A stretch of 64,000 bases of DNA from Thermococcus stetteri (lineage in GTDB: Archaea > Methanobacteriota_B > Thermococci > Thermococcales > Thermococcaceae), in contig NZ_JAGGKB010000001.1 in the NCBI RefSeq assembly GCF_017873335.1, positions 372,001-436,000 of the forward strand. The letters run 5' to 3'. The notes under the pieces were generated by a model, which ran no database searches, was not told the origin of the DNA, and saw nothing but the letters and a program-made list of their open reading frames with translations. A program made the translations under genes and the position numbers. Positions 16,657 through 46,096 of this stretch are shown piece by piece (positions within the stretch are counted from its first letter, which is position 1; each line of letters begins with the position of its first letter).

Positions 16657-17571
16657 CTAACTCAGTGCCATGTTTATTATGGTCTCGCCGATGTTCTCAA
16701 GGTACTCAAGGATTCTGCGGTAGCTCTCCATTGCTATTGACCTGTGGTAGTCTATGGACTTTATCTCCTCCTTAAGTTCCAGCATGAGCTTGTCCACTTT
16801 CATAAGGTCCCTCTCCTCGATCTGGTCAAGCATCTGGCTGAACTTTTCCCTGAGGTAAGGAACGTTTATCCTGTCCGGATTCTCGGCTATTCTTATGAGA
16901 TGGTCGCCGATCCTCTCGATGTTGCGCACTATGAAGAGTATGCCGATTAGGTCAAAGGCCCGCCGTATTATGCCGCTCTCTTCGGTGACACCGTGTTTGG
17001 TCAAGAGCCTGCTGACAGTCCTAATTATTAGGAAGTAGAACCTGTCAAGCTCGTTTTCAAGGTCGTTAATGTCCCTGAGGATTTCTTCGTTTTCCGGAGA
17101 TTGAATGAGAAGCTCGATGTCGCCGAGCATTGAAAGGACCAGGGAGCGTATCCTGTTCAAAAGCTCCGCCAGATTCACCTCATCCTCATCGAGGAGGCTC
17201 TTGGCCACTATCCTCATCGGCTCATCCAAGATTATCTCAACTCCTGGAAGGCTCTGGAGGGTCTTCCTCAGCTTAACCTTGTATATGGGCATCTCCTCTG
17301 TGAGGTTTATCTCAAGGACGTCGTAGCCCTGGATGTAAGCAGAGATGACGAGCCTTATTGCCATGTCTGGCGAGTACTTTTTTGAAATGCTCAGAACCTT
17401 CTTCTCGCTTACCTCTCTAACCTCCCTTGGGAATATCGTTATGCTACCATCGGGGTTCACAACGAGCGGGACGGCATCGCCCTGCTTGAGGTTGTTCATC
17501 TTAACCCATTTTTTTGGGAGCGATATTATGTAGGAGCTTCTGCCAGTAAACTGAATCTTCCTGAACTCCAT
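16657..17571 (-). CDS. PhoU domain protein with N-terminal AbrB-type DNA-binding domain
   Basis: A 304-residue protein. Residues 1-50 (RKIQFTGRSSYIISLPKKWV...LKQGDAVPLVV) form a swapped-hairpin AbrB/SpoVT fold; residues about 115-300 are a PhoU-like helical bundle with ENELDRFYFLIIRTVSRLL and RNIERIGDHLIRIAENP (metal-binding acidic motif). Such fusions are archaeal phosphate-uptake regulators. No pst transporter is adjacent. A separate gene: 52 bases from the asparaginase gene and 77 from the next. Confidence 0.87.
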   Translation of the reverse strand: MEFRKIQFTGRSSYIISLPKKWVKMNNLKQGDAVPLVVNPDGSITIFPREVREVSEKKVLSISKKYSPDMAIRLVISAYIQGYDVLEINLTEEMPIYKVKLRKTLQSLPGVEIILDEPMRIVAKSLLDEDEVNLAELLNRIRSLVLSMLGDIELLIQSPENEEILRDINDLENELDRFYFLIIRTVSRLLTKHGVTEESGIIRRAFDLIGILFIVRNIERIGDHLIRIAENPDRINVPYLREKFSQMLDQIEERDLMKVDKLMLELKEEIKSIDYHRSIAMESYRRILEYLENIGETIINMALS

Positions 17572-25644: not shown

Positions 25645-28659
<3,015 letters not shown>

Positions 28660-30390: not shown

Positions 30391-30790
30391 TGAGCAAGGA
30401 GTACGGCCGGTGGGACTTCCCTTAGCGGGAAGTACCAAAATTCCCGTCCGGGGTTTGGTCGGGATGTCGGGCCTGCCTTACCCCCGAGGGGTCCGCCTTT
30501 CGGCGTTTCCTCGGGAGCGCACCTTTTTGTGACCCGGGCTGGAGGGCGGGGTTCATAGTGGGTGCTTTGCACCCGTTCCCCCCGACGCCGCCGTCATGGC
30601 GCCCGGGTTTTGTCGCGCCCTGTTCGGGCGCTCCACCCTATAGGGACGAACCCTTGCAGTGAAAAATTTTTGCAAAACCCTTGAGAGGCCATATTTTTGA
30701 AAATAAAGCTGTCAAAACCCAGCTTCAAAATTCGAGAAAATTAACACAAAAATGTTAAAACACAGCAGGGGACAGAACCAACTGCAAAAG
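30391..30790 (-). promoter_or_regulatory. rRNA operon leader and promoter region, incl. 5' BHB arm
   Basis: This 400-base interval holds no gene. The part next to 16S is GC-rich transcribed leader containing the 5' arm of the 16S processing stem: 30461-30477 (outer helix), 30457-30460 GACC (central), 30454-30456 AAA bulge and 30442-30453 (inner helix). Further hairpins occur at about 30481-30513 and 30600-30636. The strongly AT-rich block 30655-30750 must carry the promoter; candidate TATA boxes on the minus strand are CAAAAATATGG (30689-30699) and GCAAAAATTTTTC (30661-30673). I cannot choose between them. Confidence 0.65.
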
Positions 30791-45973: not shown

Positions 45974-46033
45974 ATTACAATCTCCTCCCGAAGCCTTAAA
46001 AGGATTGAGGAGAGCCTTTGATGGGTGGCCACC

Positions 46034-46096
46034 CGAAGTGATGAGCACTCTCGAACCTGACGGGCAGGATGATGACCGGATTCCTGGCTGATTTTT
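46034..46096 (+). ncRNA. C/D box sRNA (2'-O-methylation guide)
   Basis: All four boxes are perfect and evenly spaced: C GTGATGA 46038-46044, D' CTGA 46057-46060, C' ATGATGA 46069-46075, D CTGA 46088-46091. The two guides are exactly 12 bases each (46045-46056 and 46076-46087) and the D'-C' spacer is 8, the archaeal standard. The D guide CCGGATTCCTGG has a 10-nt antisense match to 23S rRNA (complement of 26256-26265); the D' guide target was not found here. A TATA CCTTAAAAGG at 45991-46000 and TTTTTCCCTTTT at 46092-46103 fit its own promoter and terminator. 5' and 3' ends are estimates. Confidence 0.9.

Follow-up and report, generated by a model that had tools for sequence, protein, structure and literature searches.

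The element at the centre of this study lies in the window, by which we mean the whole 64,000-nt stretch of Thermococcus stetteri DNA that was analysed, and our preferred reading, which we hold with a probability of about 0.87, is that it is an orthologue of the sR5 guide RNA that would be made as its own short transcript and would guide methylation of 23S rRNA at G2404 and G2371. Its boxes, its family membership, its rRNA pairing, its conservation and a D' guide that tracks its target across genera were all observed.

Identity and architecture of the element

A cmscan search against Rfam 15 assigned the element to RF01304 (sR5) with 53.8 bits, against a gathering score of 40, and the match covered the full model (1–53). 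The features discussed below are listed by window position; nucleotide n of the 23S rRNA corresponds to window position 28666-n on the minus strand, with the gene ends taken from Rfam.

45994–46003 (approximate), plus strand: TATA-like element CCTTAAAAGG, with the C box about 35 nt downstream, from aligned relatives
46035–46092, plus strand: C/D box sRNA, Rfam RF01304 (sR5), from cmscan
46038–46044, plus strand: C box GTGATGA, read directly
46045–46056, plus strand: D' guide GCACTCTCGAAC, 12 nt, from 23S pairing
46057–46060, plus strand: D' box CTGA, read directly
46069–46075, plus strand: C' box ATGATGA, read directly
46076–46087, plus strand: D guide CCGGATTCCTGG, 12 nt, from 23S pairing; near-invariant in the family
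46088–46091, plus strand: D box CTGA, read directly
46092–46096, plus strand: T-rich tract 3' of the D box, read directly
26255–26266, minus strand: predicted 23S target of the D guide, nt 2400–2411, with G2404 at 26262, from pairing
26288–26299, minus strand: predicted 23S target of the D' guide, nt 2367–2378, with G2371 at 26295, from pairing

The C and C' boxes agree exactly with the archaeal RUGAUGA motif and the D and D' boxes with CUGA, both guides (C to D' and C' to D) have 12 nt where about 12 nt are expected of archaeal C/D box sRNAs, and the pair at the fifth position is a Watson-Crick C-G pair at G2404 for the D guide and at G2371 for the D' guide. This four-box layout occurred a single time in the 64 kb when both strands were searched and 0 times in 60 Markov-generated sequences, each of one strand's length. 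With the boxes read directly and the Rfam match in hand, the original prediction, a C/D box sRNA whose four boxes are exact and whose two guides are 12 nt each, was borne out; the novelty that it implied was not, as RF01304 already covers the element end to end. Judged by its boxes and its family match, the element is a real, ordinary C/D box guide and the Thermococcus orthologue of the known sR5 family; it is not a new kind of element, sR5 being in Rfam already, and its novelty is low.

The element resembles RF01304 in its full-length match, its boxes, its Pyrococcus-type D guide and its place in a Thermococcaceae-wide family, whereas its D'-C' spacer exceeds the Rfam consensus by about 5 nt and its D' guide sequence differs together with the rRNA target of that guide. 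Weak matches at the same place to RF00095 (snoPyro_CD), sR7, sR12, sR3 and sR28 share the common C/D box frame, but all are below their gathering scores and the guides are different. Elsewhere in the window, positions 17152–17221 on the minus strand gave a weak match to the C/D family sR53 (23.1 bits against a gathering score of 49) that is probably due to chance.

Predicted targets in 23S rRNA

The D guide was found to form 11 contiguous pairs (10 Watson-Crick and 1 G-U) with 23S nt 2400–2410, and this is its best site in the LSU of the window's genome according to RNAduplex. The 10 contiguous Watson-Crick bases that had been claimed for this guide match exactly at 26256–26265, and the +5 rule again leads to the G at 26262 that had been proposed for methylation, so that the predicted 2'-O-methyl site at G2404 is supported. 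Shuffled D guides scored as well somewhere in 16S and 23S in 16 of 150 cases, and the match is convincing because it is conserved across genomes, a lone rRNA match being only moderately beyond chance. Neither the core of the D guide (GGATTCCT) nor the rRNA sequence that it targets (TCAGGAATCCGC) varied in any of the 45 genomes in which both could be read, the sole D guide change among them being one A in G077 at a position outside the core. The identical guide is present in three genomes of the Pyrococcus group (G004, G006 and G008) opposite the same rRNA site, as an orthologous D guide.

For the D' guide, the original prediction had only a 7-nt match at 26245–26251 and allowed that the target may be elsewhere, naming tRNAs and 16S as places to search, and here it needs correction. 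A duplex of 10 contiguous pairs (9 Watson-Crick and 1 G-U) with 23S nt 2369–2378 (26288–26297) outscores the shorter match, and it is the top D' site in the entire LSU both by contiguous score and by RNAduplex; the two target nucleotides beside the D' box (26298–26299) are unpaired in the window's genus. The earlier site (LSU 2407–2422) ranks third in RNAduplex, with -14.4 against -17.6 for 2367–2378, and the best 16S site likewise scores lower than the 23S site. No tRNA or 16S site was found to be near as good, an exact complement of the D' guide occurs in the genome only at the gene itself, and 0 of the 8 places with one mismatch in the genome lie within a tRNA. Although 18 of 150 shuffled D' guides scored as well somewhere in 16S and 23S, only 11 of 3000 had an equally good site no more than 100 nt from that of the D guide. 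The predicted methylation site of the D' guide is most likely 23S G2371 (window 26295), in an rRNA stretch whose differences between genera the guide follows.

The D' guide and its rRNA stretch across genera

This comparison comprised 45 genomes with both the sRNA and the rRNA stretch readable, and its counts are of genomes and not of independent changes, some of which may be single inherited events. Guide and target differ together by genus, GCACTCTCGAAC occurring with TATCGAGGGTGC, GCGCTTCCGATC with TATCGGGGGCGC, and GTGCCCTTGATC with TATCAGGGGCGC or TATCGAGGGCGC. Pairing of the D' guide to its own target extends over about 10 positions in the window's genus and in the genera g4 and g5, and in Pyrococcus either 11 of 12 positions fit, the mismatch being central, or the fit is near-perfect with one bulge in 13-nt guides. 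Ranked by RNAduplex energy, the D' site is first in the LSU for the window's genome and for g5 and third for Pyrococcus.

RNAduplex energies were best or nearly best on the genus's own D' target. On its own site the window's D' guide gave -17.6 kcal/mol, compared with -7.6 to -13.7 on those of g5 and Pyrococcus, but it was equally good on some foreign sites, namely that of G002 (-17.6) and one variant from g4 (-16.7). The D' guide of G002 itself does not fit its site, and the +5 pair at D' is G-U in G087 and G089. Overall, there is good but not complete support for a D' guide that tracks its rRNA stretch, with a close correspondence in three genera and a loose one in Pyrococcus.

Genomic context, distribution and loss

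The sRNA is located between the divergent genes rimI (NCBIfam TIGR01575) and herA (NF040819). The upstream TATA-like element is kept as CTTTTAAG or as CTTAAAAG-like sequence in aligned relatives and is the probable promoter of the sRNA, the T-rich tract after the D box could act as an archaeal terminator, and the alignment of relatives contains a second conserved TATA-like box between the sRNA and herA. The sRNA is near-invariant in these relatives, whose flanks have diverged.

Pattern-based tabulation of sR5 and herA positions in 81 genomes placed the sRNA on the herA strand, 67–452 nt upstream of that gene, in 35 (nearly always at 67–105 nt) and elsewhere, with its guides kept, in 24 that include Pyrococcus; the pattern was not found in the remaining 22 of those tabulated. 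A strict linkage of sR5 to herA is ruled out by the 24 genomes with sR5 elsewhere. Across 94 Thermococcaceae genomes, the window's genus has two HerA types, with 68–100% versus about 45–47% identity to the HerA of the window, and since the divergent type never adjoins sR5, this suggests that the herA locus has been exchanged. The window also carries the H/ACA guide RNA Pab19 (RF02794, 96.6 bits) at 30528–30631 on the minus strand, immediately upstream of 16S, as has been described for T. kodakarensis too.

RF01304 was above its gathering cut-off in 60 of the 94 genomes, and the window's own genome has one sR5 copy. Matches to the model numbered 6–14 per genome in the Pyrococcus group (G004–G012) and were mostly below the cut-off; these extra matches, far fewer in Thermococcus, probably come from other C/D box sRNAs that cross-hit the model. 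The combined pattern of C' box, D guide and D box was present in 13 contigs of a collection of 84,980 species, 12 from Thermococcaceae/Thermococci and 1 acidobacterial. The latter exact match, on Acidobacteriaceae contig L200 (1878–1899, minus strand), is most likely due to chance.

C/D box sRNAs are well known for their turnover. In G015 (contig L168) and G035 (L169), herA, the rimI-side sequence and the TATA-like box are kept and the sRNA is gone, an arrangement by which at least two relatives are cases of loss in place and natural knock-outs for sR5. The sRNA is dispensable, because at least two relatives without it keep the same rRNA sequence. When the genomes that lack sR5 were searched for a substitute D guide, two short matches (G040 and G055) were obtained, at pattern level only.

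The genome G024, which we take to be T. kodakarensis, has its sR5 orthologue at 2,002,457–2,002,514 of contig C1. This orthologue is absent from the list of circularised RNAs in a T. kodakarensis study that detected 61 sRNAs, and the numbering in that list leaves space for sR59 or sR60 at its position (PMC9014305). No paper naming the targets of sR5 was found in our literature search. RiboMeth-seq data have been deposited for P. furiosus (GSE153501; PMC7758197).

Alternative readings of the element

A real C/D box guide with only its D guide productive, and with the D' guide directed at a different RNA (tRNA, 16S or mRNA) or at none, would account for the two mismatched positions adjoining the D' box and for the weak D' fit in Pyrococcus and in G002. 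We regard this as unlikely, as in three genera the D' guide varies with the rRNA, 16S offers no comparable site, and the genomic search returned as exact complement only the gene itself and one-mismatch places outside tRNAs. A mainly cis-acting role, in which the element would be no trans guide but would regulate the adjacent herA or rimI gene or form its kink-turn leader, could draw on the position upstream of herA in 35 genomes and on the remark that cis elements may account for some of the snoRNAs predicted close to transcript starts (PMC4247193). Such a role is very improbable, given that the element sits elsewhere with its guides kept in 24 genomes, that a TATA-like box of herA's own lies between the sRNA and that gene, that a T tract directly follows the sRNA and that rRNA-matching guides would be needless for it.

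It is hardly credible at all that the boxes are a functionless chance arrangement. Single rRNA matches as good as these are not rare among shuffled guides, but the Rfam match, the conservation in 60 genomes, the guides that track their target and the absence of the layout from randomised sequence all oppose it, and the conservation across genera has already refuted it.

Double-guide model and significance

In an alignment with E. coli 23S rRNA, G2404 corresponds to A2309 and G2371 to G2276. We take these positions to lie in H84 and H81, respectively, both in domain V. The D' guide follows a nearby 23S stretch whose predicted site is 33 nt from that of the D guide, and therefore sR5 is most likely a double guide for these two adjacent hairpins. 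In the published description of archaeal double guides (Dennis et al. 2015, PMC4644070), the D guide forms at least 9 Watson-Crick pairs and the duplex of the D' guide, for which G-U pairs are allowed, is no more than 100 nt away. The predicted sR5 duplexes have this form, including two 23S sites less than 100 nt apart and the +5 rule. Unlike the main methylation hotspots reported there (H35/35a, H61, H68–71 and H90–93), the sR5 targets are in H81 and H84.

The steps of transcription, RNP assembly, methylation and chaperone action that we infer would begin with a short transcript of about 60 nt from the rimI-herA intergenic region, on whose C/D and C'/D' motifs L7Ae, Nop5 and fibrillarin would assemble. 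The D guide would then direct 2'-O-methylation of G2404 in H84 and the D' guide that of G2371 in H81, and simultaneous binding of both sites may aid the folding of this part of domain V. Rather doubtful, and put forward tentatively, is the extension that sR5 is both a methylation guide and a co-folding clamp that holds H81 and H84 together during assembly, with its D' guide kept matched to genus-variable rRNA and the lineages with loss in place as natural knock-outs.

In summary, the sR5 gene itself is routine, belonging to a curated RNA family, and what our analysis adds is a corrected D' target and evidence from the comparison of genera that guide and target change together. Relatives that lack the sRNA and retain the rRNA site would provide a direct test of whether both methylations need sR5.
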